From: a virus
IMG/VR virus record: IMGVR_UViG_3300031507_000021
Coordinates: 1 to 39,239 of that record
DNA length: 39,239 bases
Strand: one strand, 5' to 3'
A program made the position numbers and the translations under genes. Below the pieces are notes generated by a model. The model saw nothing but the letters and a program-made list of their open reading frames with translations, made no database searches and was not told where the DNA came from. Each line of letters starts with the position of its first letter. Position 1 is the stretch's first letter. Below, one piece after another: positions 7,744 through 39,239 of the stretch.

Positions 7744-9501
7744 TTACGCTGCCTGCAGGGTCATGCCGATGTTGACAATGACCTGTGTTGGATAGCCCCA
7801 CGGCTGCACCGCGACGTTGAAGATCAGTTGCCCCGTGCTGTAGATGTTGTTGGTGCGCGTCACCTGGCAACGCACCGCCACGGCGTTGCCGAGCGGCAGC
7901 GGCGCCACCGGCAAGCCCGCTTGCTCGGCCGTCGTCATCTTCGACTCGATCTTGATGGCGTAGTCCTCGCGGATGGTGCCCGCGATACCGTTGCGCGTCT
8001 GCGTCGGAATGCGCGCCAGCGTGTAGGGCCGCGCGTTCACGACGGCGATGCCGCTCGCCTGGTCGATGACGCGGGCGTTTGTGAACGGGTAGTAATCGCT
8101 CGTGGCGATGGTGGCCGTGAAGCCGCGATTGATGAACACCGCCGAGCCCGCGCCGTAGGTCTGCAGGCTCGTGATGCCCGCGTTGTAGAAGCTCAGGCCA
8201 AAGGCGAAGTCGTCGCGCACGCAAGAGGTGAACCCGGCCAGGCCGCCGAGCTCGACGGCGCCTAGATCTTCGGACGATTCGTTGGCCACCGATCGTCCGA
8301 TGGCACCCCACACGGCATTGCGACGGAACACGAGCCCCGAGAAGGCGCCGGTCATGATGCCATCGCCGGCGGCGGCGAGCACGTGCGGCGCACTCATACC
8401 CGCTCGAGCGGCGAGGATGACGCTGTCTGTGTCCGCTGAATCAACGATGACATCCCCGTTGTTGGGGAGGACCGTGCCCACCGTGGGCCCGCCAATGAGG
8501 AAGCGCGGGTAGATGTTCAGCGCATTGAACGCGAGCGCCTGCGTCTCGCCAGCGGCCACCAACGTCGCCCAGTCGGCGGCCGATGCCACCGCACCGACGA
8601 CGCCGATGAGCGAGGAACGGAAGCTGTTCACGAGCGGCCCCGAGAGCAGGGCGCATGCGGCCGTGAAGTCCGCGACGGTGAACGTCGGCGGCGCGGTGTT
8701 GAAGGTGTAGTAGTCGCCCTTGACGGCCACGCCGGTAAACCCGAGCACGATGCCCGTGCCTGGGATCGCATACGTCGCCGCGCTGGTGATGACCGCCGAC
8801 GTGCTGCCGCCGTTGTCGAGGCTGTAGGTGAATTGCGAGACGCCCACCACGCCGCCCAGCGTGATGGTGATGCGCACGCGGTAGGAGTCGACCGGCGAGG
8901 CCGCGAACGTCGGCACCGCCGGCGCCGGGGCGACCGGGCCGCTGGCGACGCCGAGCGGGGAGATCGTATAGGTGTCGCCGGCTGCATACGAGCCCGCGAT
9001 AGGCTTGACAGTCGCGAACGTGCCAGGAACCTGCACGCCCGCCGTCGCCCACGCGGCCTTCGACAGCAGGGGCGGGCTAGTGACCGTAACACCGCCGGTG
9101 GTGACGCCGAAGGTGAACTGGGCCACGTTGAGCGAGCCGGGCACGGTGCACGTCATGGTGATGGCGGCGGACGGGCCTGGCGTCGCAGTGATGGCGAGCG
9201 CACCGGTGCCCACCTTGGCGACGGCACCGATGCCACCTTGCGTCGTCGCCGGCAGCGGCATGATCTGGACGAGCGAGCCCGGCGATGCCTGCAGCACGTA
9301 GGTGACCATCTCGAGCAACTCGCCGCCCACGAGCGTGCGCGCGGCCATGACCGGATCGCCGAGGTTGTCGATGGTGTTGGCGACACCGCCGCCGGCGTTG
9401 TTGCCCAAGCAGCAACCCATGACGAGGATGGTGTTTTGATTCGACCCCGGCTGCAGGCCGAGGTTGCCGTCCAGAACGTTGACTTTGACCGGATAGGCCA
9501 T
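7744..9501 (-). CDS. Contractile tail sheath protein
   Basis: A 585-residue protein. The ATG at 9501 shares a base with the TAA of the preceding gene (TAATG); the open frame further upstream lies over other genes and was rejected. The C-terminal 250 residues look like a sheath core: FLIGGPTVGTV, a bulky middle, then VINARPYTLARI-like and IREDYAIKIESKM segments and a short beta-rich end. This shows the phage is a myovirus. The N-terminal half has two inserted beta modules: VAQFTFGVTTGG with AAGDTYTI (about residues 125-190), and VSQFTYSLDNGG with KGDYYTFNTAPP (about 235-290). They resemble inserts in gpJ and the fibre and probably project from the tail surface (inference). Confidence 0.88.
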   Translation of the reverse strand: MAYPVKVNVLDGNLGLQPGSNQNTILVMGCCLGNNAGGGVANTIDNLGDPVMAARTLVGGELLEMVTYVLQASPGSLVQIMPLPATTQGGIGAVAKVGTGALAITATPGPSAAITMTCTVPGSLNVAQFTFGVTTGGVTVTSPPLLSKAAWATAGVQVPGTFATVKPIAGSYAAGDTYTISPLGVASGPVAPAPAVPTFAASPVDSYRVRITITLGGVVGVSQFTYSLDNGGSTSAVITSAATYAIPGTGIVLGFTGVAVKGDYYTFNTAPPTFTVADFTAACALLSGPLVNSFRSSLIGVVGAVASAADWATLVAAGETQALAFNALNIYPRFLIGGPTVGTVLPNNGDVIVDSADTDSVILAARAGMSAPHVLAAAGDGIMTGAFSGLVFRRNAVWGAIGRSVANESSEDLGAVELGGLAGFTSCVRDDFAFGLSFYNAGITSLQTYGAGSAVFINRGFTATIATSDYYPFTNARVIDQASGIAVVNARPYTLARIPTQTRNGIAGTIREDYAIKIESKMTTAEQAGLPVAPLPLGNAVAVRCQVTRTNNIYSTGQLIFNVAVQPWGYPTQVIVNIGMTLQAA

Positions 9502-10040
9502 TACACGACTCCCGTCAGAACGACGTTGAAGGCCTCGTCGGTGATGATGGCCACCGGCGGCGCGGGCGGCGCGACAGGCGTCGGCACGAGGACGGTGAGC
9601 ACGAGCGCGCGGCCGTGGCGGACGAGCCCGCCGTCCATCTGCACCCACCGCTCCGCGAGCGGCTTGTAGTAGAGCCCACGTTGAATGTCGACAACGTCGA
9701 TGTATTGGGCCCGCTGATCTTGCAACGCCGCGAGGACGAGCACGCGCAGCGACTCGGTGGCGTCTACGTGGTCGATAGGCGTAGCCGTGGGCGAGGGATC
9801 GGCCGCCCACAGGTAGAAGTCGACCGTCTGTGAGATGCCCCATTGCGCCTCGACGGTGCGGTCGAAGTTGCCCGAGTAGGCCGGCGAGTCCTCGTAGGGC
9901 CCGCCCATGGGCACCATGACGACCATCGGCAGTGGCTGCCCCTGCGTGTGGACTTCCTCCTCGCCGTAGACCAGCGACACGCCGGTGAGCGCCTGCGACG
10001 CACGGAGCGCGCCGAACAGCGTCTTGAGCGGCCCGGCCAT
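9501..10040 (-). CDS. Tail terminator/neck-type protein
   Basis: The protein has 179 residues. Its ATG at 10040 overlaps the TGA of the gpG-like gene; the in-frame open sequence above that ATG lies over other genes. It starts MAGPLKTLFGALRAS and has a beta-rich middle with QTVDFYLWAADP. Its place between a gpG/gpS-like tail completion protein and the sheath is that of the Mu gp37/tail terminator group. Those proteins cap the tube or connect tail to head. The sequence itself gives no decisive motif. Confidence 0.6.
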   Translation of the reverse strand: MAGPLKTLFGALRASQALTGVSLVYGEEEVHTQGQPLPMVVMVPMGGPYEDSPAYSGNFDRTVEAQWGISQTVDFYLWAADPSPTATPIDHVDATESLRVLVLAALQDQRAQYIDVVDIQRGLYYKPLAERWVQMDGGLVRHGRALVLTVLVPTPVAPPAPPVAIITDEAFNVVLTGVV

Positions 10041-10447
10041 CAGCGCAGCATTTCTCGCACGGCGTCGGTGGCCGCGCTCTGAATCGGCTGCGCCCACAGG
10101 CCGAGGCCACGTTCCTGCTCGGGGAACATCTTGCGCGCCGGCATGACGCGCGTGCCAGCCTGGTGGAATTTTCCGTAACCGGCGATGCGCATGACGACCG
10201 TGGCCGAGCCCGGCACGTAGCGCGCGGTGAGGCTGCCTACGAGCTCGCCGGTGTCGCGCAAGATCGGATGGCCGTCGCCCTCGCGTTTCCTGCGTGCCCA
10301 GGCGTTGCCGTACGGGTCGCGTTGACTCACGAAGCCTGCGATGGCCGAGGCATGGCAAGCGTTCGCCACGTGCCCCCCAATGCGTTGGAAGACGTCCCCC
10401 GCGGCCAGGCCCTGCAGGCGCGCGATGAGCTCGTTCATGCCGGCCAT
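10040..10447 (-). CDS. Virion morphogenesis protein, Mu gpG / P2 gpS-like
   Basis: This 135-residue protein carries the hallmark of the phage virion morphogenesis family: DPYGNAWARRKREG followed by PILRDTGELVGSL, then YGKFHQAGTR, PARKMFP and a helical C-terminus. Family members act in tail completion and head-tail joining and are homologous to HK97 gp10-type proteins. The stop at 10040 overlaps the ATG of the next gene. The ATG at 10447 follows directly on the stop of the gp36-like gene. Confidence 0.85.
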   Translation of the reverse strand: MAGMNELIARLQGLAAGDVFQRIGGHVANACHASAIAGFVSQRDPYGNAWARRKREGDGHPILRDTGELVGSLTARYVPGSATVVMRIAGYGKFHQAGTRVMPARKMFPEQERGLGLWAQPIQSAATDAVREMLR

Positions 10448-10939
10448 CTACCACCAACTCCACGCGGAGAGCATCGCCATGTTCGCCGTCGTGCCGTCGC
10501 CGCGCGGGGTGAAGCCAACGGTGGGGTCACTGACCACGTAGTCGCCGGCGCGGTCGGAATCCGGCGGGAGGCCCGAGGAGTCGGCGTAGTTCGGGGTGAT
10601 CGTTTGCTTGGCCACGCCGTCGAGCCATGTGTCCGCCCATTCCTTGCGCGACGTCATCACCTGCCAGTCGGGTGCCGCAGGGTTGAAGCCGAGCGAGAAG
10701 TAGAGCGTGAACGCGGCCCGGTAGCAGACCACGAGCGTCAAGGCCATGTCCCATCCCTGCGGCGTCGTCTGCAGCGGGAGTACATACTGCGAGTTGAGGT
10801 AGGTGTCAGCGATGGACGATTCAGCCTGCAATGCCGCCGCGACGCAGCCGGGAGACGCAGCCTCGAACCGCGCGAAGGCAGCTGGCGTGATCGCCAGTTG
10901 CTGCATTTGCGCCTCGGTGGCGTACTGCGACTGCGCCAC
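10448..10939 (-). CDS. Head completion protein, Mu gp36-like (DUF1320 type)
   Basis: A 163-residue protein with a GTG start at 10939, three bases after the capsid stop. It opens MAQSQYATEAQMQQLA and continues with a helical region (AESSIADTYLNSQYVLPL, ALTLVVCYRAAFTLY). This is the pattern of the Mu gp36/DUF1320 family, head-tail connector (adaptor) proteins. Gene order capsid, gp36-like, gpG-like matches Mu. The C-terminal tail (about 40 residues) is Gly/Asp-rich and specific to this phage. Confidence 0.78.
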   Translation of the reverse strand: MAQSQYATEAQMQQLAITPAAFARFEAASPGCVAAALQAESSIADTYLNSQYVLPLQTTPQGWDMALTLVVCYRAAFTLYFSLGFNPAAPDWQVMTSRKEWADTWLDGVAKQTITPNYADSSGLPPDSDRAGDYVVSDPTVGFTPRGDGTTANMAMLSAWSWW

Positions 10940-10942
10940 GAG

Positions 10943-11890
10943 CTACGCTCCGCTGACCTTGATGGCCTTGAACCACAGGCCCGGGGCGGCGGCGCCACGA
11001 GCGCGACCGCCCATGTAGTAGCGATCTTCGAAGAACACCGTCGAGCTCGCGGGGTCGACGAGCGAAACGAGTTGCGGCGCCTCGCGCTCCTGCCACAACG
11101 CCGCGCGCAGCGAAGCCGAGCGATTGTCGAGGAGATACCAGACGGCCGTGGTGGGGTCGCCCGAGTCGGTGAGGTACTCGCTCACGACGACGTTGAACTG
11201 CCCCGCCCACACGTTCGACTGCGATCCGAACGTACCCGAAACGCCGTTCTTGCCTTCCGGGTAGAAGCTGGCGTTGGCGACCGTCAGCGCCGCGAACTGC
11301 AGCGACGGCGGCACGAGGATGGTCGTGCCGTAGCTGCCGAGCGGAATGCCATCGGGCCCCTTGAGCGTCATCAGCGCGGCTTGAGCGAGCGCGACGTTCA
11401 CCGCGTTGAGCGGCTTGGTGGCGAGACTGTTGGACTGCGCGCCCGTCTTCGCCTGCGGGTCAAGGTAGTGGTTCGTGGCGAACAGCGTGCGGCTGTCGTA
11501 GCAGATGGGGTTCGAGTTGAAGATGTTCGCGATCTGCTGATCGGGCAGAATGCGCGCGTTGCGTGCCAGGTTCGGAATCAGCATCGACGCGTAGATCGAG
11601 TACTGGTCATCCTCGAGATCGGTACGCTCGATCGAGAGCGTGTCTTCCCACTTGATGTTCGTGACCACGAACCCGTCGACAACGACGTTGTTGATGACGC
11701 GTGCGCCCGTCCACTGACGGAAGGCACCTGAGATCGTCTGCATGAACGGGTAGCGCTGGTCGCGCGTGTTCGACGGAATGCGTGTGCCCACCTGCTCGAG
11801 CAACGGCCCGGGCGTACCCATGTACGCCTCGGTGAACATGGTTGAGAACGACTGAAACATCGCGTCGAGATTCGCCTGATTGATGACCAT
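10943..11890 (-). CDS. Major capsid protein, Mu gpT-like
   Basis: The protein has 315 residues. The ATG at 11890 overlaps the TGA of the decoration gene, so I prefer it to an upstream in-frame start at 11914. It begins MVINQANLDAMFQSFSTMF and contains IPSNTRDQRYPFM, VNNVVVDG-like and FNSNPICYDSRTLFATNHY, all characteristic of the Mu gpT major head subunit. It assembles the icosahedral shell with the decoration protein encoded just upstream. There is no N-terminal scaffold; scaffolding probably comes from the protease gene product, as in Mu. Confidence 0.9.
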   Translation of the reverse strand: MVINQANLDAMFQSFSTMFTEAYMGTPGPLLEQVGTRIPSNTRDQRYPFMQTISGAFRQWTGARVINNVVVDGFVVTNIKWEDTLSIERTDLEDDQYSIYASMLIPNLARNARILPDQQIANIFNSNPICYDSRTLFATNHYLDPQAKTGAQSNSLATKPLNAVNVALAQAALMTLKGPDGIPLGSYGTTILVPPSLQFAALTVANASFYPEGKNGVSGTFGSQSNVWAGQFNVVVSEYLTDSGDPTTAVWYLLDNRSASLRAALWQEREAPQLVSLVDPASSTVFFEDRYYMGGRARGAAAPGLWFKAIKVSGA

Positions 11891-12297
11891 CAGAGCACCC
11901 CCAGCGAAACCCAAACGCCACCAGCATCAAACCCGGTGCAATTGCCGGCTGCCGAGCGGGTACCGGTGCCGTCTGCCTTCGCCACCGTGACATCGTCGAC
12001 GGTGAAGACGGGTTTGTTGACGCTCGCCTGGTCGACCGTGCCGTCGCTGGCCAGGTACGCCTCGCACAGGAGCACGTCGATGCTCACCGCGCCGTTCGCC
12101 CCGCCCGTGTTGTCGACGTCGGCGAGCGCCAGGCCGGCAGGGGCGAGCGCAGTACCGACACCGCCCGGGAGTGCCCAGCCGGTTACATCGGTGACGACCA
12201 GCGTGCCCTTGTAGATCTTGGCGTTGGCCTTGACCGCGAACGAGCGCATGGTGCGCACGCTACGGAACGACGTGTTACGCGAATTGGTGGCGGCCAT
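11890..12297 (-). CDS. Capsid decoration/cement protein
   Basis: The product has 135 residues; its ATG at 12297 lies at the stop of the protease gene. Small size, Gly/Ala/Thr-rich composition (LALADVDNTGGANGAVS) and a position between protease/scaffold and major capsid fit head decoration proteins (DUF2190-like or gpD-like), which trimerise on the capsid surface. The N-terminal SFRSVRTMRSFAV is basic. Assignment is from synteny and composition; no unique motif was seen. Confidence 0.68.
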   Translation of the reverse strand: MAATNSRNTSFRSVRTMRSFAVKANAKIYKGTLVVTDVTGWALPGGVGTALAPAGLALADVDNTGGANGAVSIDVLLCEAYLASDGTVDQASVNKPVFTVDDVTVAKADGTGTRSAAGNCTGFDAGGVWVSLGVL

Positions 12298-13298
12298 TAG
12301 CCTTCCTCCGACGTGGGGGCGTTGGCGCGCGCGGCGAGCGTCTGCGCCTTATGCTTTGCGACGGCCGCCGGGTCGGCGCCGATTTTCTTGATGAGTGCCA
12401 CCTGCTCAGCGCCGAACGCGGCGATGGTGGCATCAGGATCTTTCTTCGGCTCGCGAGCCTCGGCAGGCGCCTTGCGCAGGCAACGCAGCATCGTGCGCAG
12501 CGCGTCGGTGCCATGCTTGGCCTGCAGTTCCTCGAGCTCGGCGCGGCGCGCGGGCTCGACGCGGCCGTCCTTCACCGCCTCGTCGAGGAGCGTCTTCGTC
12601 TCGCCGGCGGCAACCGACGCCTTGAGCGTCGCGAGCTCATCGGCCAGCGTCTCGGTGAGCTCCGCACGCGTCTTGTACGCGTTCAGAATACCGAACGCCT
12701 CGGCCGTTGACTTGGCGCCGGCGAACGTGAACACGTCGCGCTCGAACGCCAGCATCGCCTTGAAGGCCGACAGGAGCTCGGCGGTGGTTTTGAGGCCGAG
12801 AGCCTCGAGAAGCTCTTCCATGAACGTCTCCCTCTTGGGTTCGTCTGCGCGCGCCACCAGCGGTGCAATCGCCTGCGTTGCGGGCCAATTCGTTAGCGCC
12901 ATCGGCATCAGGCGCACCGGGCGGCGCGTCTTGGCGTCAAGCTCCACCGTCGGTGAGAAGTAGCGGTATTCGCGCGCCTTGAGCATGGCGGCAGCCTTGT
13001 CGGTCCACCGCACGTTGCCCGCCCACAGGCCGTCTTCGCGCACCTCGGGAGTGAACCATCCCGCAGCCGGTGCCGGCGCGCCGTTCTTCTCGGACGCGAA
13101 CGTCTGGTGCTCGTAGTCGATCGCGAGCTCGATGCCGTGCGCGCCGAATGCCTTCATCACCGTCTCGGCGGCGCGCTCGTCCAGCACCAGGCGGCCCTTA
13201 AGCGTCTGCGTCTCGCCCCATGGCCAGATGCGGAACGCCGACGGGGCATCGGTGCCGTCGGGCAGTGGGAGCGTAAGCGAAACGACGATTCGGGCCAC
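12297..13298 (-). CDS. Prohead protease/scaffold, Mu gpI-like
   Basis: A 333-residue protein. The N-terminal 170 residues follow the Mu I-protein pattern: IELAIDYEHQTF, APAAGWFTPE, DGLWAGNVRWTDKAA and EYRYFSPTVEL. The Asp-Tyr-Glu-His segment and the Ser of YFSP are probable active-site parts. The remaining 160 residues are Ala/Glu/Lys-rich helices (ELEELQAKHGTDAL), expected for an internal scaffold processed during head maturation. The GTG at 13298 gives the best protein start. There is no clear Shine-Dalgarno and 89 bases separate it from the portal gene, so the start is uncertain. In Mu this protein degrades the scaffold before packaging. Confidence 0.85.
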   Translation of the reverse strand: MARIVVSLTLPLPDGTDAPSAFRIWPWGETQTLKGRLVLDERAAETVMKAFGAHGIELAIDYEHQTFASEKNGAPAPAAGWFTPEVREDGLWAGNVRWTDKAAAMLKAREYRYFSPTVELDAKTRRPVRLMPMALTNWPATQAIAPLVARADEPKRETFMEELLEALGLKTTAELLSAFKAMLAFERDVFTFAGAKSTAEAFGILNAYKTRAELTETLADELATLKASVAAGETKTLLDEAVKDGRVEPARRAELEELQAKHGTDALRTMLRCLRKAPAEAREPKKDPDATIAAFGAEQVALIKKIGADPAAVAKHKAQTLAARANAPTSEEG

Positions 13299-30708: not shown

Positions 30709-31118
30709 TGGACGTCGCGATCACAGTCTTACACCATGGAAAAATCCCGCAGTACACGACGCCTGACGCTGTGGGCCTCGAGTGCTACGCCTCGGAACCT
30801 GCGATCGTCCCGATGCGCGGCGGCCGCGTGCAAGTGCAGCTCGGGTTCGTGATCGCGATTCCCGCCGGATTCGTGGGCATGATCATGCCGCTCGAGGCCA
30901 TGGCGATCCGTGATGGCGTGTTCCCACTGCCGCGCACGATCGACGCGGGCTATCGCGCGCCGATCAGCGCGCTCCTCCTCAACGCGAGCGATTGGCCGTG
31001 CGAGATCGAGACGGGCGCCCGCGTATGCCAGCTCGTGATCATGCCGGCGGCGCGCGTCTCGCTCGGGTTGATTGGCGATCAGAACACGGCGGTGCGCGGG
31101 CGACGAGGCGGGCGATGA
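30708..31118 (+). CDS. dUTPase-like protein with eroded active site
   Basis: The protein has 136 residues. It follows the trimeric dUTPase layout: AVGLECYAS (motif I), FVGMIMPLEAMA (motif II), RTIDAGYRAPI (motif III) and GARVCQLVIMPA (motif IV). Motif II lacks the usual Arg-Ser-Gly (PLEAMA), motif I has lost its Asp, motif III has Ala for Gly, and the Gly-rich motif V is missing. Catalysis is therefore doubtful. Phage dUTPase-fold proteins can act as regulators by binding partners, which is a possible role here. Confidence 0.7.
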   Translation: MDVAITVLHHGKIPQYTTPDAVGLECYASEPAIVPMRGGRVQVQLGFVIAIPAGFVGMIMPLEAMAIRDGVFPLPRTIDAGYRAPISALLLNASDWPCEIETGARVCQLVIMPAARVSLGLIGDQNTAVRGRRGGR

Positions 31119-31555
31119 ACCCGATGACAGAGATGGGGGTGCAGCCGATGCGTTTCTACAGCCCAGCGGAAATCGCGGTGCGCCTCAATCGTTCGCGCCG
31201 CCATGTCTACCGACTCATCGCATGCGGTAGGCTACCGCACATCGCGGACGGGGAACGTAGCGTACGTATTTCCGAAGAACAGTTCCAACGATTCATGCGG
31301 GAGAATGAGTGCGACTCTACCAGAGGAAGAAACACGGCACGTGGTGGTGCGAATTCTACAACGCCAGGGGCGAGCGAATTCGAGTCACGACGAAATGCAA
31401 GGACGCGCGGGCAGCCGAGCTCGCCGCCCGCCAGCTCGAACGAGACGCCCACGATCCGAATCGTCCAGCCGAGGACGCGCCCTCGTATCCGGTCACTGCC
31501 GCTCTCGAGCACTTCATCCACCACGGGTGCCCAGAAGTCGCCGACGCCACGGTAG
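31115..31555 (+). CDS. Excisionase-like HTH protein, tail overruns the integrase gene
   Basis: A 146-residue frame with an ATG at 31115 (ATGA overlap). Residues about 12-64 form an HTH_17/MerR-like domain: MRFYSPAEIAVRLNRSRRHV, YRLIACGRLPHI, VRISEEQFQRFM. These are typical of phage excisionases and DNA-bending proteins next to integrase genes. The remaining 80 residues (Ser/Arg/Pro/Thr-rich) lie in a second frame of the integrase gene and probably arose by loss of an original stop. Whether the tail is functional is unclear. Confidence 0.7.
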   Translation: MNPMTEMGVQPMRFYSPAEIAVRLNRSRRHVYRLIACGRLPHIADGERSVRISEEQFQRFMRENECDSTRGRNTARGGANSTTPGASEFESRRNARTRGQPSSPPASSNETPTIRIVQPRTRPRIRSLPLSSTSSTTGAQKSPTPR

Positions 31556-32607
31556 GCATGTACGTCGAGAAATCGGGCCACCTCAAGCGCCTGGTCGGCT
31601 CCCGCGACATCTCCGAACTTCAAGACATCTCCATCATGCAGGGCTACATCAAGCAGCGCCTCGACGAGGGCGCCGCAAAGTCGACCATCCGCAAAGAGCT
31701 GGTGACGATGCGGCAGACGCTCTACGCCGCGCTCGAGAGCAAGCGAATCACCTTCGATCCTCGCATGTGCTTTCCCCGGTTCAAGGCGCCGTACAAGCCG
31801 AAGGAGCGGTGGCTTACGCCCGACGAATTCACGCGGCTCGTGTCTGCGTTTCAGCCGTGGGAGGAAGGCGACGATCCTGCCCTCAAGAGGCAAGGCGCCC
31901 CGCACCGCCAGTTGTGGCTCGTCCTCGCCGTCTACACCGGCGGCCGTGACTCCGAGATCGATGGCCTGCGGTGGGAGGACGTCGACTGGAAGGGGCGCAT
32001 GATTCGCATCCGCGGCACCAAGACGCGAACGCGGGATGTGACCGCCGGTTCAGATCGCACGATTCCGCTACAGCCCGTGCTCGCGGAAATCCTCGGCCGC
32101 AACCGGCAGCCCAGAGGGCACATCGTGGGGGAGTGGCTCAACGTGCGCCGGGACCTTCACGCGGCCTGCGGCCCGCGCCGCGCCAACATCCCGCCGTGCT
32201 CGCCGAACGACCTGCGCCGCACCTTCGCCACCTGGTTGGCGGGCATGGGCGTCTCCGAGGGAACGGTGGCCAAGATGCTCGGCCACAGCTCGAGCGCGAT
32301 GGTGCGGAAGGTCTACGCCCAGATCGAGAGATCTAGCATGGCTCGCGATCTCGCGAAGCTCTCAGGGGCGTGTGTCATTAGTGTGCCAAACAATGGCGCA
32401 GAACAGGCGAGCGAGGCGTTGGTGTCACAAGAGTCGCTCGGGAAACTAGCGGAAATCCTTACTAACCCAGTGCTCGGACCCGGAATCGAACCAGGGACAC
32501 GCGGATTTTCAATCCGAATACCTACCTTGAAATCTATCAGGAAATCGCTCGGAATTGACGCGTGTGCCATTAGTGAGCCATCAACCCGCGTCCGACGTCG
32601 AGCCTAG
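31309..32607 (+). CDS. int: Tyrosine integrase with attP inside its 3' end
   Basis: This 432-residue protein starts at GTG 31309, five bases after GGGAG. It has an N-terminal arm-binding part, a SAM-like core-binding domain (about 60-160) and a catalytic domain. Catalytic residues are Arg213 (TGGRDSEIDGL), Lys238 (RGTKTR), Asn300 in place of the usual His with Arg303 (NDLRRTF), His326 (MLGHSS) and Tyr336 (VRKVYAQ). Residues about 388-403 (NPVLGPGIEPGTRG region) are the antisense translation of tRNA-Phe, the attP core. The last 29 residues lie beyond it, so integration would exchange the C-terminus of the protein. It is the last gene before a strong terminator. Confidence 0.93.
   Translation: MRLYQRKKHGTWWCEFYNARGERIRVTTKCKDARAAELAARQLERDAHDPNRPAEDAPSYPVTAALEHFIHHGCPEVADATVGMYVEKSGHLKRLVGSRDISELQDISIMQGYIKQRLDEGAAKSTIRKELVTMRQTLYAALESKRITFDPRMCFPRFKAPYKPKERWLTPDEFTRLVSAFQPWEEGDDPALKRQGAPHRQLWLVLAVYTGGRDSEIDGLRWEDVDWKGRMIRIRGTKTRTRDVTAGSDRTIPLQPVLAEILGRNRQPRGHIVGEWLNVRRDLHAACGPRRANIPPCSPNDLRRTFATWLAGMGVSEGTVAKMLGHSSSAMVRKVYAQIERSSMARDLAKLSGACVISVPNNGAEQASEALVSQESLGKLAEILTNPVLGPGIEPGTRGFSIRIPTLKSIRKSLGIDACAISEPSTRVRRRA
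32471..32516 (-). other. attP: attP core: 3' half of tRNA-Phe(GAA)
   Basis: Read on the minus strand, 32516-32471 is a tRNA 3' half. It holds the anticodon loop TTGAAAA with its 3' stem, variable loop GTGTC, the T-arm CCTGG-TTCGATT-CCGGG, and acceptor bases TCCGAGCA ending at the discriminator. It differs from E. coli tRNA-Phe at only a few places. The 5' half is missing, so this is not a working tRNA. It is the identity block by which a tyrosine integrase phage recombines into the host tRNA-Phe gene and restores it. Confidence 0.9.
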
Positions 32608-32716
32608 CCACCCGCCGCGCCGCCGCGAACACGTCACCGCCCCGCCCGTTGACACCCGCCCGCGCCGGCGCTACAACCGAGGTACCCGCTTCCCCCCGAA
32701 TCGGTGCTGTGCCGAG

Positions 32717-32750
32717 AAACCCGAGGACCCCACGCCTCGGGTTTTTCCTT
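32717..32750 (+). terminator. Rho-independent terminator after int
   Basis: AAACCCGAGG (32717-32726) pairs perfectly with CCTCGGGTTT (32735-32744) around an eight-base loop, followed by TTCCTTTT. It ends the rightward int transcript. On the minus strand the stem is followed by only three T and then CTC, so it would be weaker in that direction. Between 32608 and 32902 I see no gene besides this. Confidence 0.88.
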
Positions 32751-32902: not shown

Positions 32903-33073
32903 ATGATTCGAGCGCGGCGATATGTGTGGGGGCGGCCGGTGCAGCGCGAGTACCTCACGCCCCGCGGCGATTTCGTCCGCGAGTACTGGACGGGTTATGG
33001 CCACCTGTATCGGACGGTGCAGCTCATGGCGAACGTCGAAGAGATCACCTTGACGGTGGGTCTATCGGCCTAG
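32903..33073 (+). CDS. Small protein of unknown function
   Basis: The product has 56 residues from ATG 32903, preceded by a GGGGGG run. MIRARRYVWGRPVQREYLTP with VREYWTGYGHLYRTV is basic and Tyr-rich, and no family is known. It lies beyond the int terminator, so it needs its own promoter. Its TAG at 33071-33073 shares CTAG with the stop of the opposing RTX lipoprotein gene. The isolated position suggests an accessory (moron) gene. Confidence 0.55.
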   Translation: MIRARRYVWGRPVQREYLTPRGDFVREYWTGYGHLYRTVQLMANVEEITLTVGLSA

Positions 33074-34134
33074 CACGTCGACTCGCACGCGGCCCCGATC
33101 GGCGTGCAGCAATCAACGCCCGTGCCGCCGCTCGACGCGCCCACGCCGGCATCTTGGAATAGGCGATCATTGCCCGAGCCACCGCCAAGCAGATCGTCTC
33201 CGTCGCCACCGTCGAGCGTGTCGTCGCCATTGCCGCCAAGCAGCACGTCGTCGCCCGAGCCACCGTCGAGCAAGTCGTTGCCGTCGCCGCCCTGGATGGT
33301 ATCCTCGTCGGCCTCGCCGAACAGACGATCGTCGCCCGCGCCGCCCTCAATCTCGTCAACTCCGACACCGCCATGCAGCTCGTCGAGGCCAGCGCCGCCG
33401 CTCACGAAGTCGTTGCCGCTCTCGGCATAGATCAGATCGTTGCCGTCGCCGCCAAAGAGCGAGTCGTCGCCAGGCCCGCCGTAAACCGTATCGTCACCCG
33501 CGCCAGCGTCGGATGCGTCGTTGCCTTCCTCGAGGAACAGCGTGTCATTGCCAGCGCCGCCGAGCACGAGATCGTCGCCCCCGCCGGTATAGATGACGTC
33601 GTCACCTTCGCCAGCGTCGACGGCATCGGCCCCGCCGAGCAGGATCACAATGTCGTCACCGGGGCCAGCCAGCACGAGATCGTGTCCGCCGCGACCGATG
33701 ATCGTATCGTCCCCCTGTAGGCCCACGAAGCAATCGTCGGCCCCAGTTCCGACGAGCACGTCGTTGCCGGCGGTACCCGTGATCACGACATAACCCGGCG
33801 GGCACGAGGTGGGGATTTGCGGCGTCGGCGTGCATTGCGGCGTGGGAATGTCGGGCGGCGGTGGGGGCGGTGGCGTCGCCATATCGGCGAGCGGCGGCGT
33901 GGCCATGTCGACAACGGGCGGCGTGGCCATGTCGGCAGGCGGCGCAGGGCACATGTCTCGCGGCGGCGGGTGGTGGTGCGAGGCGAGGATCGCTTGCGCC
34001 TCGCGCACGCGCGCCGTCTCAGCGGAGCTCAGCGGAGCCGAGGAGACACTACCTACCGCGTCGCCGCCAAGATCGCCAGGCGTGCAGGCGGCGAGCGCAA
34101 GCGCACACGGAATCACGAAGCGGATGCGTTGCAT
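33070..34134 (-). CDS. RTX-repeat lipoprotein (accessory 'moron' gene)
   Basis: A 354-residue protein whose ATG at 34134 has AGAGAGGT upstream. The signal peptide ends in a lipobox (MQRIRFVIPCALALAAC, Leu-Ala-Ala-Cys), so it is lipid-anchored outside the cytoplasm. A linker follows with three DMATPP units and a Pro run. Then come about 23 consecutive nine-residue RTX units (GDDTLDGGD, GNDLLDGGS and variants), which in other proteins fold as a Ca2+-bound beta-roll. The C-terminus has a Cys pair (VDCCTP). Such surface lipoproteins are normal for Myxococcota chromosomes but not for phage virions. I infer lysogenic conversion, perhaps surface masking or superinfection exclusion. It lies downstream of the fibre block with 83 bases between. 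Confidence 0.85.
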   Translation of the reverse strand: MQRIRFVIPCALALAACTPGDLGGDAVGSVSSAPLSSAETARVREAQAILASHHHPPPRDMCPAPPADMATPPVVDMATPPLADMATPPPPPPPDIPTPQCTPTPQIPTSCPPGYVVITGTAGNDVLVGTGADDCFVGLQGDDTIIGRGGHDLVLAGPGDDIVILLGGADAVDAGEGDDVIYTGGGDDLVLGGAGNDTLFLEEGNDASDAGAGDDTVYGGPGDDSLFGGDGNDLIYAESGNDFVSGGAGLDELHGGVGVDEIEGGAGDDRLFGEADEDTIQGGDGNDLLDGGSGDDVLLGGNGDDTLDGGDGDDLLGGGSGNDRLFQDAGVGASSGGTGVDCCTPIGAACESTC

Positions 34135-34520: not shown

Positions 34521-35996
34521 TTAAACGACAGGTTGGGTCGACGTGAGCACCCACGCCGGCACGCCGAGGCGATCGTCCCACGTGAATTGCTGCACGATGA
34601 TCGCGTTCGCACCGGCGGCGAAAGTAGCGTTGCCGTTGAACCTGACGTTGGCGCCCCACCCGCCGATCGTGAAGGTGCCGGCGGTGCCGTCTTTGAGCCA
34701 CACGATCGTGCAGGTTTCGCCGGCAGCGCCAGCAACCAGGGTAGGTGCTGTGACGTTGGCGGTGACGGGCCCGAAGTGGATCACGTTGCACGTCGTCGGA
34801 TCGAGCGCCGGCGTCGCCGAGAACGCGACGAGTTGTGTGCCGCGCAAGATGCGCTTGCCGGCGAGCGTGCGCCACCGCGTGCCGACCAGGCCGAAGTCGC
34901 GCGTGCCGTCGGCGTCGGGCAAGATCTGATTACCCGCGAACACCGCATTACCCGAAGTCATGCTGAACGTGCCGGTGCCGTCGCTCCATCCGATAACGCC
35001 AGCGTTGACCGAGCAGGCCGCAGTACCGTATGCGAGCGACGCGCCCGCGGCCGTCGACAGCGACAGAGCCGACGAGCCACCGCCATCGACGAGCTTGACG
35101 CCGTCGGTGCTGTTGATGCGCGCGTTCAAGAGGTTCGTGTTGTTGTTGGCGATCTGGAATAGCGAGGCTGTCGCGTTGGCCAGCGTCGTCGAGGAGTTGA
35201 TGCGCACGCCAACCGTCGAGGCGCCGTCGGCGACGTTCGGCTGCAGCGTCATTCCGATCGTGTTGGTGGCGCCTTGCGATGAGCTGCGCAGTCGGAAAGC
35301 GGGGAACACGCCCATGTCGCCGCCTTGCAACCACAGCGCATAGGCATTCGTGATCGTGGCATTCGTGCCCGAGTTAGGCCCGCCGCTGATCGCTACCGTC
35401 GCGGCGCTGCTGATCGTGCTCGCGCCCACAAAAGCATATGTCGGCGCCTGGAAATACACGTGGCGTTGCGTCGAGAAGTTACCCGTCGCGAACTCGTAAA
35501 CCTGATTGAGGTTGAAATTGCACGCGAGATACTCCGTCGACGCTGTCATATTCGTGGCGGCGGCGCCCGAGACGCGAAACGCCGAGGTTGCCGTCACGCC
35601 CGACTGCACCGCTTGCGTAACGCGCAACCCGGTGCACTGCACGTTGGCGAGTAGGGTGTTGACGCCGCCGACGAGCAAACTCGTCGTGTTGGCGCCCGTG
35701 AACAGGCCCGCCGCGCCGCTACCCGACAAATCGAGCGTGTTACCCGCCGCCGTGAACTGGCTATTCGCCACCGTCCCCGTGCCCGTCGCCACAGGCAAGC
35801 GGCCCGACGTGAGCGAGCCGGTAATGCCACCACCGCCCGCCGCGCCGAGCGTGGTCTCGCTGTTGTCGACGTTGCGCGCGACCACGCCGACGCCTGTCTT
35901 GTAGTAGATGCCGGCGACGCCACTCGGGCCTTGCCACGAGGCGCTACCCGTGGCCATTTGCACGCCGCTGTCGGCTCGGAACGGTTTGATGGCCAT
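34521..35996 (-). CDS. Tail fibre protein
   Basis: The protein has 491 residues; its ATG at 35996 lies next to the stop of the preceding gene. A virion-attachment-like N-terminus (MAIKPFRADSGVQMATG) is followed by long Gly/Ala/Thr/Asn-rich beta repeats (GSLTSGRLPVATGTGTVANS, SGNAVFAGNQILPDADG). DADGTRDFGLVGTRWRTLAG carries the LGxxxxRWxxL signature widespread in fibre and appendage proteins. The C-terminal 100 residues form another beta domain (FTIGGWGANVRFNGNATF). No intramolecular chaperone catalytic dyad was seen. It probably takes part in host contact with the fibre at 37519. Confidence 0.82.
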   Translation of the reverse strand: MAIKPFRADSGVQMATGSASWQGPSGVAGIYYKTGVGVVARNVDNSETTLGAAGGGGITGSLTSGRLPVATGTGTVANSQFTAAGNTLDLSGSGAAGLFTGANTTSLLVGGVNTLLANVQCTGLRVTQAVQSGVTATSAFRVSGAAATNMTASTEYLACNFNLNQVYEFATGNFSTQRHVYFQAPTYAFVGASTISSAATVAISGGPNSGTNATITNAYALWLQGGDMGVFPAFRLRSSSQGATNTIGMTLQPNVADGASTVGVRINSSTTLANATASLFQIANNNTNLLNARINSTDGVKLVDGGGSSALSLSTAAGASLAYGTAACSVNAGVIGWSDGTGTFSMTSGNAVFAGNQILPDADGTRDFGLVGTRWRTLAGKRILRGTQLVAFSATPALDPTTCNVIHFGPVTANVTAPTLVAGAAGETCTIVWLKDGTAGTFTIGGWGANVRFNGNATFAAGANAIIVQQFTWDDRLGVPAWVLTSTQPVV

Positions 35997-36260
35997 TTAC
36001 ACCCTCTTGATTTCCAGCGTCTCGAGGTTGATGCCTTCGTCGGCGCCATCGCCAATCGAGTACTTTTCCTTGAGCTCGCCGTAGAGCTCGGCCACCACCT
36101 CGAGAGCCTTGTTTGCCACCTCAGCGGCGTCGTGCGCGGCACGGATAGCGGCCTCCGAGCGGAGCTTGGCGATCTGCAAGCGCATCGCGTCCAGTTCGGC
36201 GACGTGCGTAGGCAACTCCACGAGGTGCAGCTCGGCGGGCGCGGTCGTCTCGTCGCTCAT
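35997..36260 (-). CDS. Small helical protein in the fibre block
   Basis: The product has 87 residues; its ATG at 36260 overlaps the upstream TGA (ATGA), so the open frame above it is ignored. It is almost wholly helical (LDAMRLQIAKLRSEAAIRAA, VANKALEVVAELYGELKE) and acidic. Small helical proteins beside fibre genes are often assembly chaperones; that role is only suggested by place. Confidence 0.6.
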   Translation of the reverse strand: MSDETTAPAELHLVELPTHVAELDAMRLQIAKLRSEAAIRAAHDAAEVANKALEVVAELYGELKEKYSIGDGADEGINLETLEIKRV

Positions 36261-36493
36261 GTGCCACTCGCGATCAGTTCGACCAGGCCGGTAAAGCGGC
36301 CCGACGTTTCGACCGTGCAGCCTGCGGCGGTGAGGCTCGCGGCAGGAATGTCTACGGCTACCGCGCCGCCGGTATCCGAGATCTGCACGCCAGCCGAAAC
36401 CAGCAACGGCGCCGAGCTGAACGGCGCCGACCACGTGATGGCGACGCTATCTTCGGCGCCCGTGAATGTCGCAATCGCTGTCTGAATGGCCAT
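36257..36493 (-). CDS. Small beta module resembling an insert in gpI
   Basis: The product has 78 residues with an ATG at 36493. MAIQTAIATFTGAEDSVAIT with FSSAPLLVSAGVQISD and then CTVETSGRFTGLVELIA looks like the module in gpI encoded at 39239 to about 39000 (DTATITWPLVF, VGVPSDSVIITIDG, WSGSVAVIAYATG). A free-standing copy of a baseplate-decorating module suggests that these units move between tail proteins. Its TGA overlaps the ATG of the helical protein gene. Confidence 0.62.
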   Translation of the reverse strand: MAIQTAIATFTGAEDSVAITWSAPFSSAPLLVSAGVQISDTGGAVAVDIPAASLTAAGCTVETSGRFTGLVELIASGT

Positions 36494-36577
36494 ATCTATC
36501 AACCCCTTATGCGTGCGGCAATTTGTCGCATGGCGCAGGCTCAACTTTTCGGCGTGGAGTCCGATAACATCCACAGG

Positions 36578-36952
36578 ATGCGAGTGGCGTTGGTGGCGTT
36601 GGTGGCGCTGGTGGGTGCATGTCATTCGTCGGCGTTGCCCATTGGCAATCCTTCCGACATGCCGCCGGTTGATGCTGAGATGATGGCCGCCGATACGGCC
36701 GCTGCACCGCCGCCAGATACCGCCGAGCCGCCCGATGACACCGACAAGGCGTGCGGCGGGGCGGGCCAACCGTGTTGCGCAGAGGGTATGTCCTGGCTCC
36801 CATCGTCCGCGCATCTGTTGCAGGGCGTCGGCTCGTGCGGCGGCGGGCTCGCTTGTGCGCAGTCGGCGTGCCCGCCGCGCTCGACGTGCCTCGACGGACG
36901 CTTCAACGCCGAGTGGAATACCGTTTATGTCACCTACTGCACCGCAGATTAA
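36578..36952 (+). CDS. Cys-rich lipoprotein
   Basis: This 124-residue product starts at ATG 36578; the earlier in-frame start lacks a signal peptide. The lipobox is in MRVALVALVALVGACHSS (Val-Gly-Ala-Cys). An Asp/Pro/Ala-rich linker (AADTAAAPPPDTAEPP) follows, then CGGAGQPCCAEG and GGGLACAQSACPPRSTC. This Cys-Cys pattern is frequent in secreted proteins of Myxococcota. It is on the plus strand, opposite to the surrounding fibre genes, and paired with the next lipoprotein 15 bases on. Probably a lysogenic-conversion gene. Confidence 0.75.
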   Translation: MRVALVALVALVGACHSSALPIGNPSDMPPVDAEMMAADTAAAPPPDTAEPPDDTDKACGGAGQPCCAEGMSWLPSSAHLLQGVGSCGGGLACAQSACPPRSTCLDGRFNAEWNTVYVTYCTAD

Positions 36953-36967
36953 GACTTGGAGGCCAAC

Positions 36968-37522
36968 TTGAACGCTCACACTGTCGTCATCCTCGTTCTG
37001 CTCGCCGCTGGCTGCACGCCCGAGCCCGCGCCAACTGCCCCGCATGATATGGGCGGTGACATGGCGGGTAGCCTGGCGATCGGAGACCTGGCTCGAGTCC
37101 TGGGCGACATGACGCCAGCCACGTGTGCGTGGGACGCATCGACGCCGCCAATATCCACTGGCACGATGCCCATCTCTTCGGCGTACGTGCTCGGCGCGCA
37201 GCAATGCATGGTCCTCGCCGACGCCCTCTACATCGATCGTCGGCGCGACGATCGTACTGAGGAGCAACTCTATTTCTACCCGCAGACAGCCACAGCGAAC
37301 GGGATTCGCGTGTTCTATCGGTCGATCGGCGACGGGAAGACCCTCCCTGAGATCACGTGCGAGCAATGGAACGGAACAGCGACGATCACCGCCACGCCCG
37401 CCGGCCGACGCGTCACGGTCGATCTGCAATGCTCCGAGATCAACGCCGGTCACCATTTTTGGACACTCGACATGACGCCACCGATCACGCTCGTGCGCGG
37501 TACCTTCGATTTTCCCAACTAG
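36968..37522 (+). CDS. Lipoprotein of unknown function
   Basis: The product has 184 residues from TTG 36968, chosen because GGAGG (36958-36962) stands five bases upstream. MNAHTVVILVLLAAGCTPEP is a signal peptide with the lipobox Leu-Ala-Ala-Gly-Cys or an equivalent. The mature part has MGGDMAGSLAIGDLARVLGD and a beta-rich C-terminal domain (EEQLYFYPQTATANGI, WNGTATITATPAGRRV) with a few cysteines. It follows the Cys-rich lipoprotein in one short operon. Its TAG shares CTAG (37519-37522) with the opposing fibre stop. Confidence 0.72.
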   Translation: MNAHTVVILVLLAAGCTPEPAPTAPHDMGGDMAGSLAIGDLARVLGDMTPATCAWDASTPPISTGTMPISSAYVLGAQQCMVLADALYIDRRRDDRTEEQLYFYPQTATANGIRVFYRSIGDGKTLPEITCEQWNGTATITATPAGRRVTVDLQCSEINAGHHFWTLDMTPPITLVRGTFDFPN

Positions 37523-38808
37523 AGTACCGGCACGGAGAGCTCGTAGTTGGCGCTGATGAATAGCGGCCCCACGAACTGCGTATTATCGGTGACTGATGGG
37601 CTCGCCGCGATCTTCTGACCAAACGTGAACTTCAGCGCCGTAGTGGGCAGATTAGTCGTAATGGTGGCCGCGAGGGCGCCATTGATAAAGAACCTAGCGC
37701 ATGGGCCAGTAGGAGCGGCTGAGCCCACCAACTCAATACCGAATCTCGTTGTATTCGTCGTCGCAGCGATGCCGCTATCGACCGTGGTGGTAACTGTTGC
37801 CGCCATCGCATTGCACTGCCAATTCGCCTGACCGGAGGCGCGACTAAAAGACACCCCATCGGTAAAAGCATTGACGACAGACACCCAGCGATTGCGGCTT
37901 GGTTGGTTCCCGCCGCCCATGCCGGCATATTGGGTGCAATTTGTAACGCCAACAGAATTGATTTTCCCATACCAGTTGAATGCCAGCGTTACCCCAGAAT
38001 GGGGGAATATCATGCAAGCATATTGCCCTAACCAAGCATCGGCCGTGGCGCCTGTCGAGGGTAGAACAGATGCCGATGAAAATGGAAACAGCGACGATGC
38101 GTCGAGTCCCAATTGATACGTGGCGCCTGTTCCTGGTACTGAAATATCAAACACCCAAGATGGGGCGACGGGAATCGGAACAACCGGGGCAGATACTGAA
38201 CCAACAACCCCGGTAGGATTTGGCCAATACTCCTTGTAGAGCAGGTTCCTTGAGTTGTAGTACCCGTTGTGATCGACCGCAGATCGAGCGTTGCCCGCCG
38301 GATCGTTCCATTGCGCCAGCGGCGTAAACGCGGAGCGAAACGTCGCCGTACCCAACGCGGTGAGCGTCCCGACGAACGCAAGCGTGATTCCGCTCGTCGC
38401 GTCCACCATGCTCGCGGCCGTCGTTTGCGTCGCGCCGTAGGTGGCGCCGCCGTCGATCGACGTCTTGAACGTCGCCACGCCCACCGCGCCGCCCGCCTGA
38501 ATCTGCACGACGAACCGCGTGCCGTCGGCGATATGCGCCGAGCCCGATGGCGTGACGGTGCCTCCGAAGGTGAGAAGCACTGGGTTCGTGAACCCGCTCG
38601 CGGTCGCATTGAGCACGGGCAGCTCCGGCCGCGACGACGCCATGATGTGCCCGATAAAGTCCGCGGGAACCATCATGGCCTGGGCTACGCTGGCTGCATT
38701 TGCAGCATCGCCATCGGACGGCAGCACGACGACAGGAATTGCGCCGGGAGCTGGTGCCGGCGAGGGCGTGCGGGCGGCAGTTGGGCTGCCTGTGTAGTTC
38801 GACGGCAC
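37519..38808 (-). CDS. Tail fibre / receptor-binding protein
   Basis: This 429-residue protein starts at GTG 38808, which overlaps the TAG of gpI (TAGTG); the open frame above it lies inside gpI. After a Pro/Ala-rich start, MMVPADFIGHIMASS precedes a beta module (GVATFKTSIDGGATYG, then GITLAFVGTLTALG) like those in sheath and gpJ. The C-terminal 220 residues (FDISVPGTGATYQLGLDASS, FGIELVGSAAPTGPCARFF) look like a lectin-type tip. Base composition falls noticeably in that half, a sign of separate origin. Its place directly after gpI, as in P2/Mu-type phages, supports host recognition. Confidence 0.8.
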   Translation of the reverse strand: MPSNYTGSPTAARTPSPAPAPGAIPVVVLPSDGDAANAASVAQAMMVPADFIGHIMASSRPELPVLNATASGFTNPVLLTFGGTVTPSGSAHIADGTRFVVQIQAGGAVGVATFKTSIDGGATYGATQTTAASMVDATSGITLAFVGTLTALGTATFRSAFTPLAQWNDPAGNARSAVDHNGYYNSRNLLYKEYWPNPTGVVGSVSAPVVPIPVAPSWVFDISVPGTGATYQLGLDASSLFPFSSASVLPSTGATADAWLGQYACMIFPHSGVTLAFNWYGKINSVGVTNCTQYAGMGGGNQPSRNRWVSVVNAFTDGVSFSRASGQANWQCNAMAATVTTTVDSGIAATTNTTRFGIELVGSAAPTGPCARFFINGALAATITTNLPTTALKFTFGQKIAASPSVTDNTQFVGPLFISANYELSVPVL

Positions 38809-39239
38809 TAGAACACCCCCAATAGTTGCGTGACTGAACCACCCCACAGATGCCCGTCGCCCCATTTTAGGGCCGCGGGATAACCCCACGTACTCCCCGA
38901 TGCGATAGAGGAGACGCTCATGCACAGGGCGTTGGGGCGAAACGTGATGATGATGCGCTTGATCGCACCGGGCGATGCGACGGTGAAGACGTTGAAAGGA
39001 TCGACGCCGGTGGCATACGCGATCACGGCAACCGAGCCTGACCACGCGGCGGTGGATTGCAGCGTAATGCCCGAAGTCGTCTTACTCGCGCCGTCGATCG
39101 TGATGATGACGGAATCCGACGGCACGCCCACGAGCACGTGGTAACTGGTATCGGCGAACACGAGCGGCCAGGTGATAGTGGCGGTGTCGGAATTGACGAA
39201 GTTCGCCGTCGTGATGGACGAGAACGTCCATGTCGGCAT
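38808..39239 (-). CDS. gpI-like baseplate/tail protein, C-terminal part (joins 513..1)
   Basis: 143 codons ending with TAG at 38810-38808. The frame begins with an ATG at the very last base of the window, but it continues in phase from the 171 codons ending at base 1. I therefore read it as the rest of gpI. The first 75 residues (NSDTATITWPLVFADTSYHV, GSVAVIAYATG) resemble the free module at 36257-36493. The last 65 residues (GAIKRIIITFRPN, STWGYPAALKWGDGHLWGG) match the conserved end of gpI-type tail proteins. Confidence 0.75.
   Translation of the reverse strand: MPTWTFSSITTANFVNSDTATITWPLVFADTSYHVLVGVPSDSVIITIDGASKTTSGITLQSTAAWSGSVAVIAYATGVDPFNVFTVASPGAIKRIIITFRPNALCMSVSSIASGSTWGYPAALKWGDGHLWGGSVTQLLGVF

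Follow-up and report, generated by a model that had tools for sequence, protein, structure and literature searches.

In the myxobacterial phage Mx8, attP lies inside the integrase gene (int), and integration replaces 112 C-terminal residues of the protein by 13, according to two later papers that cite the original Mx8 work (PMC6070905, PMC4701971). These papers describe the modified Int as less active (PMC4701971) or altered in specificity (PMC6070905), not as dead. The deposited Mx8 sequences place the core and six repeats within intP (D86464), and uoi (positions 4991 to 5215, encoding a PF12728 protein) overlaps the start of int at position 5208 (AF396866). Islander names the Mx8 and SSV integrases as extending across attP (PMC4383910). 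The end of int is also exchanged in the P2-like Burkholderia phage AP3, where integration at tRNA-Arg trades the last 33 nt of int for 15 tRNA-side nt (PMC5247547). Archaeal SSV-type integrases target tRNA genes and carry the attachment site within the integrase gene, which integration splits into Int(N) and Int(C) and inactivates (PMC8371274). In the Streptococcus ICEs integrated in rumA, the att site lies in the gene of a serine integrase whose C-terminus is exchanged on integration into a protein-coding target (PMC4701971). In mycobacteriophage BPs, the gene that contains attP encodes the repressor, and integration shortens the C-terminus of the product from 136 to 103 aa, the viral form carrying an ssrA-like degradation tag (PMC4557955).

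We examined a comparable locus in a 39,239-bp IMG/VR virus record (IMGVR_UViG_3300031507_000021; 65.7% GC), hereafter the window, which is the whole stretch of DNA that was analyzed. We propose, with a probability of about 90% for the mechanism as a whole, that the 3′ end of int doubles as the phage attachment site. Recombination by Int between attP and the tRNA-Phe gene of the host would take place in the anticodon loop, and the phage half would rebuild the host tRNA upon integration. The window has genes for a terminase, a portal, a head protease, a sheath, and a baseplate, and we therefore regard its phage as a contractile-tail phage. No terminal repeat was found in the 39,239 bp. There is also no intact tRNA gene within the whole window, as is expected where attP and not an integrated end is present. 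Beside attP, on the minus strand, lies a gene for an RTX calcium-binding nonapeptide repeat protein (positions 33070 to 34134; PF00353, 10 stretches, E = 1e−51), and its surroundings hold long minus-strand ORFs (34521 to 39045) with no family matches.

The integrase gene in its phage (attP) form occupies positions 31309 to 32607 of the plus strand, begins with GTG, and encodes 432 aa. The ORF matches PF00589 (Pfam search, E = 8e−19), and a match to phrog_1 covers residues 4 to 354. By Foldseek comparison of the AlphaFold model, the catalytic core and the N-terminal domains are similar to those of lambda Int (1z1b) and of Tn1549 Int. The catalytic set consists of R213, K238, N300, R303, H326, and Y336, with N300 in place of H; R213, K238, R303, H326, and Y336 are conserved in Int relatives. 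Both the catalytic residues and the fold are thus those of a tyrosine recombinase. The model is confident to about residue 345, the ordered body reaches about residue 353, and residues 354 to 371, 391 to 405, and 421 to 432 have pLDDT values below 50.

The sequence anatomy of the attachment site can be read directly from the window. The core (positions 32469 to 32516, minus strand) is the 3′ half of a tRNA-Phe(GAA) gene, from the anticodon stem to the 3′ end, and is identical over 48 of 48 bp to the host tRNA-Phe(GAA) gene in a Myxococcales MAG. Exact matches to 41 nt of the core occur in only two Myxococcales MAGs among 84,980 genomes. Positions 32471 to 32516 (minus strand), which comprise the anticodon loop TTGAAAA, the variable loop, the T-arm, and the acceptor 3′ strand, are identical to the Salmonella/E. 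coli tRNA-Phe at 42 of 46 positions (E = 7e−8 in 2.3 Gb). Against the Rfam tRNA model the core scores 20.5 bits; the gathering score is 29, and a lower value is expected where only half a tRNA is present. The core is in frame with int codons 388 to 403 (positions 32470 to 32517), which are followed by 29 more residues until a TAG stop. An earlier note on this DNA had read 32471 to 32516 as an attP made of a tRNA-Phe 3′ half within these codons; the host identity and the arm repeats described below bear out the first part of that claim, and the reading frame confirms the second. As for the point of exchange, tRNA-Phe core copies with unrelated 5′ flanks have in common only the stretch that begins at C32/T33 of the anticodon loop and continues to the 3′ end, and CGGA and TCCG, a core-type inverted repeat, are kept around TTGAAAA. 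On these grounds, we infer a crossover (overlap) in the anticodon loop, TTGAAAA (plus-strand TTTTCAA; positions 32506 to 32512, minus strand), within which the exact crossover base would fall. Anticodon-loop crossover is an abundant class in Islander (PMC4383910), and the locus, with its anticodon-loop site and tRNA-targeting integrase, fits Islander class A, given a core read from sequence and junctions taken from relatives.

Within int, the core is flanked by a 21-nt direct repeat. The P′-arm copy (GCGTGTGCCATTAGTGAGCCA; positions 32560 to 32580, plus strand) lies inside int in the phage form, and the P-arm copy (GCGTGTGTCATTAGTGTGCCA; positions 32368 to 32388, plus strand), a candidate Int arm-type site also inside int, matches it at 19 of 21 positions. 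A weaker third copy (GTGTCACAAGAGT; positions 32422 to 32434, plus strand) matches at 10 of 13. The P/P′ pair scores 15, and the shuffled maximum is 10. Most of 20 related attP-form integrases carry arm repeats exceeding the shuffled control, and these repeats are therefore likely arm-type sites; relative to the core, they lie at −64 to −124 and at +43 to +98 in the attP-form relatives. The P′/P repeat of one chromosomal island (G001, see below) is not significant. The whole attP, core and both arms, sits inside the 3′ end of int. Since both the P and P′ arms are in the window, the record represents a free (or concatemeric) phage form and not an integrated copy. A repeat scan also detected a terminator-like inverted repeat (CCCGAGG...CCTCGGG, followed by TTTTTCCTTTT; positions 32714 to 32747, plus strand), and a stricter scan did not call a terminator-like hairpin there. 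Being on the P′ side, this hairpin would be severed from int upon integration. At the other end of int, an ORF at positions 31115 to 31555 (plus strand) encodes an HTH_17 (PF12728) protein, a domain also found in Mx8 Uoi. We consider it a candidate excisionase, since its position is that of Mx8 uoi: it overlaps the 5′ end of int by 247 nt in a different frame. Homologous HTH genes overlap or adjoin int in two genomes of relatives, G004 and G005 (L018, L020).

The reading frame, the attL forms in hosts, and a grafted host tRNA delimit a C-terminal tail that is particular to the phage form, namely residues 404 to 432 (IPTLKSIRKSLGIDACAISEPSTRVRRRA) and the TAG stop (positions 32518 to 32607, plus strand). 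When the palsa-type tRNA-Phe of a host is grafted onto the core, these residues become CSTS. Integration would then shorten Int from 432 to about 407 aa, 29 residues giving way to four and the lysogen protein ending in FSIRCSTS, and excision would bring the long form back. At attL, int would lie antisense to the tRNA, lose its own 3′ end, the P′ arm, and the terminator-like hairpin, and stop at a TGA antisense to the tRNA D-arm. With that hairpin gone, int in lysogens would transcribe the tRNA antisense. The earlier note had expected the last 29 or so residues to be replaced by host-derived ones. A changed C-terminus stands, but a host tail of equal length does not, because the D-arm of the host tRNA supplies an in-frame TGA, so that residues 404 to 432 would be truncated to C-S-T-S-stop. 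In the AlphaFold model, the prophage form retains R213, K238, R303, H326, and Y336 as well as all well-ordered residues. Given the low pLDDT values of the C-terminal stretches, it would therefore lose only the tail, which is largely disordered by prediction.

We sought relatives in the order of the MAG and then more widely across the phylum. The order-level search recovered Int relatives of 45 to 48% identity adjoining tRNA-Phe. At four loci of this order, int enters the tRNA-Phe core antisense. The junction is complete in three (G001, G002, and G004), where int ends in ...GFS[IV]RCST[SC]-TGA and the TGA is the antisense of the tRNA D-arm TCA; at the fourth (G005:C97), a contig end inside the core interrupts int. 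The integrated form is present in 14 distinct chromosomal cases, in all of which int runs antisense into an intact tRNA-Phe, tRNA-Met, or tRNA-Lys gene and stops at the D-arm TGA. Among them, one int belongs to a conjugative element (TraC/TraG, TrbI), another to an 8.1-kb island that encodes histidine kinases, and a third to the 38,992-bp prophage described below. This tRNA-Phe island (L008, positions 8708 to 13205, palsa_1104) carries a KaiC-like double ATPase and two histidine kinases, and no phage genes were seen in it. A second group of relatives (type B) has the same tRNA-Phe core and an int that ends 250 to 530 bp before it; the tail is therefore not a general requirement. A lysogen of the window phage itself was not found in these searches. 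The search of host genomes for prophages beside tRNA-Phe(GAA), as the earlier note had advised, thus had a divided outcome: related int genes occur at tRNA-Phe in the predicted attL form, but the closest collinear prophage sits at tRNA-Met.

Several contigs of G003 and G005 (L012, L013, L015, L016, L017, and L020) bear tRNA-Phe 3′-half copies, and their contig ends set the break exactly at TGAAAA. This pattern suggests that different elements stand in tandem at a single tRNA-Phe gene in the same genome. In two other bacterial assemblies (L044 of G100 and L246 of G391), int contains a tRNA-Met half and reads beyond the core, and no intact tRNA is present; these are the attP-like or array-internal form.

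Re-joining the ends of two integrated elements restores a long form of int. In the G001 island, tRNA-Phe stands at one end and a copy of its 3′ half lies 8,096 bp away, giving attL and attR. Once the ends are joined, the int ORF gains 18 residues over the integrated form and ends in ...GFSIRGRSAVRVRSHGATQPRTVPVGK. The second element is a prophage in G247, with 38,992 bp between tRNA-Met and its 3′-half copy. It is collinear with the window phage, sharing about ten homologous proteins in the same order (among them TerL, portal, sheath, baseplate-region genes, and exonuclease). Its int ends in ...DYDSPALTS in the chromosome (459 residues, attL) and in ...DYDSSGASLPAPKKSRETSGEAATVTHVSRRRAG when the ends are joined (484 residues, attP; +25 aa), the joined attB is an intact tRNA-Met, and its arm repeat is a perfect match of 19 nt. 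No other case comes as near to showing directly what we propose for the window phage, which we infer to integrate in the same way. In G379 and G304, prophages carrying TerL relatives were rejected as collinear cases, since they share just TerL and a distant int.

A half-tRNA embedded in int is found at 20 attP-form loci, including the window, and at 4 or more further loci, which amounts to about 25 phage or island integrases. The targets number at least eight (tRNA-Phe, -Met, -Lys, -Asn, -Arg, -Leu, -His, and -Val). Searches of viral_contigs with the exact core and with Int alone gave no match, and relatives there were reached instead with an alignment built from host loci. One viral contig (L231) has an apparently intact tRNA-Leu (TAA) wholly within the int ORF, on the opposite strand. 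In a tree built from the catalytic region, about 10 changes are required to account for the embedded state, and well supported branches force 6 or more of them (L010 was counted as none only since its contig ends in the core). The tree thus indicates that the attP-in-int trait has been gained or lost repeatedly.

Phage-form tails are 11 to 62 aa long, and all 19 fall within 11 to 65 aa, versus 20 of 40 other frames (Fisher’s exact test, P = 7e−5, uncorrected for relatedness). Their last 10 residues are more basic than those of other frames (P = 0.001, uncorrected for relatedness), like other int C-termini. A basic DNA-binding extension was rejected as a description of the whole tail, whose K+R fraction is 0.205 versus 0.207 in other frames. 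In distant pairs, tail dN/dS is 0.4 to 1.1, either near the body value or near 1, and conservation of the tail sequence was dropped on these values. We also considered a ClpX/MuA-like C-terminal degron in the phage form, prompted by the endings RVRRRA (window), SRRRAG (G247), and RRRIAG (L055). With the pattern fixed before the second set was fetched, 8 of 22 tails carried it in the discovery set and 1 of 5 in the test set, and the candidate was dropped. The D-arm stop holds for all 14 chromosomal cases and for all Phe and Met cases. As a general selected feature it was rejected: the attP-form int genes for Asn, Arg (two), His, Leu, and one Lys would read on across the tRNA.

Compared with Mx8, the window locus has the same layout: int encloses the core and the repeats around it, its coding sequence runs antisense to the 3′ portion of a tRNA, the C-terminus of Int is replaced on integration, an HTH_17 gene (uoi in Mx8) overlaps the start of int, and the hosts are myxobacterial. 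The new 3′ end of int is observed in relatives and would arise in the window phage. Mx8 was thus the right system for the earlier note to invoke (PMC6070905, PMC4701971). There are also differences. The Mx8 core runs from the T-arm to the 3′ end (best match tRNA-Asp) whereas the window site is at the anticodon loop, the exchange in the window phage would be 29 residues for 4, the window phage is of a contractile-tail type, and similarity to the Mx8 Int family is undetectable (BLASTP E = 0.82). Grafting the Asp tRNA of a relative onto Mx8 int gave no stop, the M. xanthus gene being absent from the genomes sampled. Because the arrangement is shared by integrases without BLAST similarity, we regard the locus as varying the Mx8 theme within an integrase lineage of its own. 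The exchange is shorter in AP3, and its target is a different tRNA. In SSV-type elements the catalytic gene is split, but here the entire catalytic domain is on the attL side and only the predicted disordered tail would be lost. The degron-like ending of the window Int, in turn, was unconfirmed on test, unlike the tag of BPs, and the rumA ICEs differ in integrase class and target.

That the tRNA-like sequence is a chance resemblance, or a tRNA-derived relic unrelated to integration, is refuted by the 48-bp identity, its position, the arm repeats, and the same arrangement at real junctions in many relatives. The earlier note had further suggested that integration could be one-way until the phage supplies intact Int. 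Such suicidal integration, in which the prophage Int would be inactive and excision would require the Int of another phage, is true of archaeal SSV-type integrases (PMC8371274). We consider it improbable here, since no part with a known catalytic role is lost: the attL gene is not split, keeps all catalytic residues and ordered domains, changes in a part predicted to be disordered, and is an intact ORF in 14 chromosomes. Type-B relatives, whose int stops short of the same tRNA-Phe core, and the modified Mx8 Int, reported as less active but not dead (PMC4701971, PMC6070905), also speak against it.

Two further readings concern what the swap does. Through genome compaction, attP may simply have drifted into the 3′ end of int, both Int forms being alike and the swap having no regulatory role; we put this a little short of an even chance. 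It agrees with a tail that is predicted to be disordered and evolves fast, with the D-arm stop frame unused in the Asn, Arg, His, Leu, and one Lys cases, with type-B int genes that stop before the same core, and with embedded and adjacent states that interchange at least six times on the tree. It fits less well with the narrower range of phage-form tail lengths than of other frames, with the basic last 10 residues, and with the Mx8 precedent of altered Int activity. Slightly under even odds, too, we hold a switch of the Mx8 kind, in which the long form would favor integration and the short lysogen form, less active or changed in specificity, would stabilize lysogeny until excision. C-terminal tails tune tyrosine recombinases, lambda Int being an example, and the anatomy is the same as in Mx8, down to an HTH_17 gene that overlaps the beginning of int and to repeats surrounding the core within int. 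Yet no constraint on the tail sequence was detected, and the integrases show no detectable similarity by BLAST. A difference in activity or specificity between the two Int forms, such as that described for Mx8, is plausible.

Until now, the integrase of Mx8, which rewrites its own C-terminus, has passed for an oddity. The same arrangement is now found in a lineage with no detectable similarity to Mx8 Int. Its carriers are phages, a conjugative element, and small islands, and its tRNA targets number at least eight. It is accordingly wrong to annotate the phage and prophage forms of int as a single protein, and the natural pairs of embedded and adjacent sites offer a means of asking whether integrase activity is under the control of the C-terminal swap. 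Tentatively, and with more doubt than confidence, we suggest that a large set of integrases of Myxococcota phages and islands repeatedly put attP in int, with the antisense host tRNA giving the lysogen stop, and that the 11- to 62-aa tail may be a real, length-constrained regulatory extension. If so, integration itself would switch the form of the integrase across many tRNA targets.
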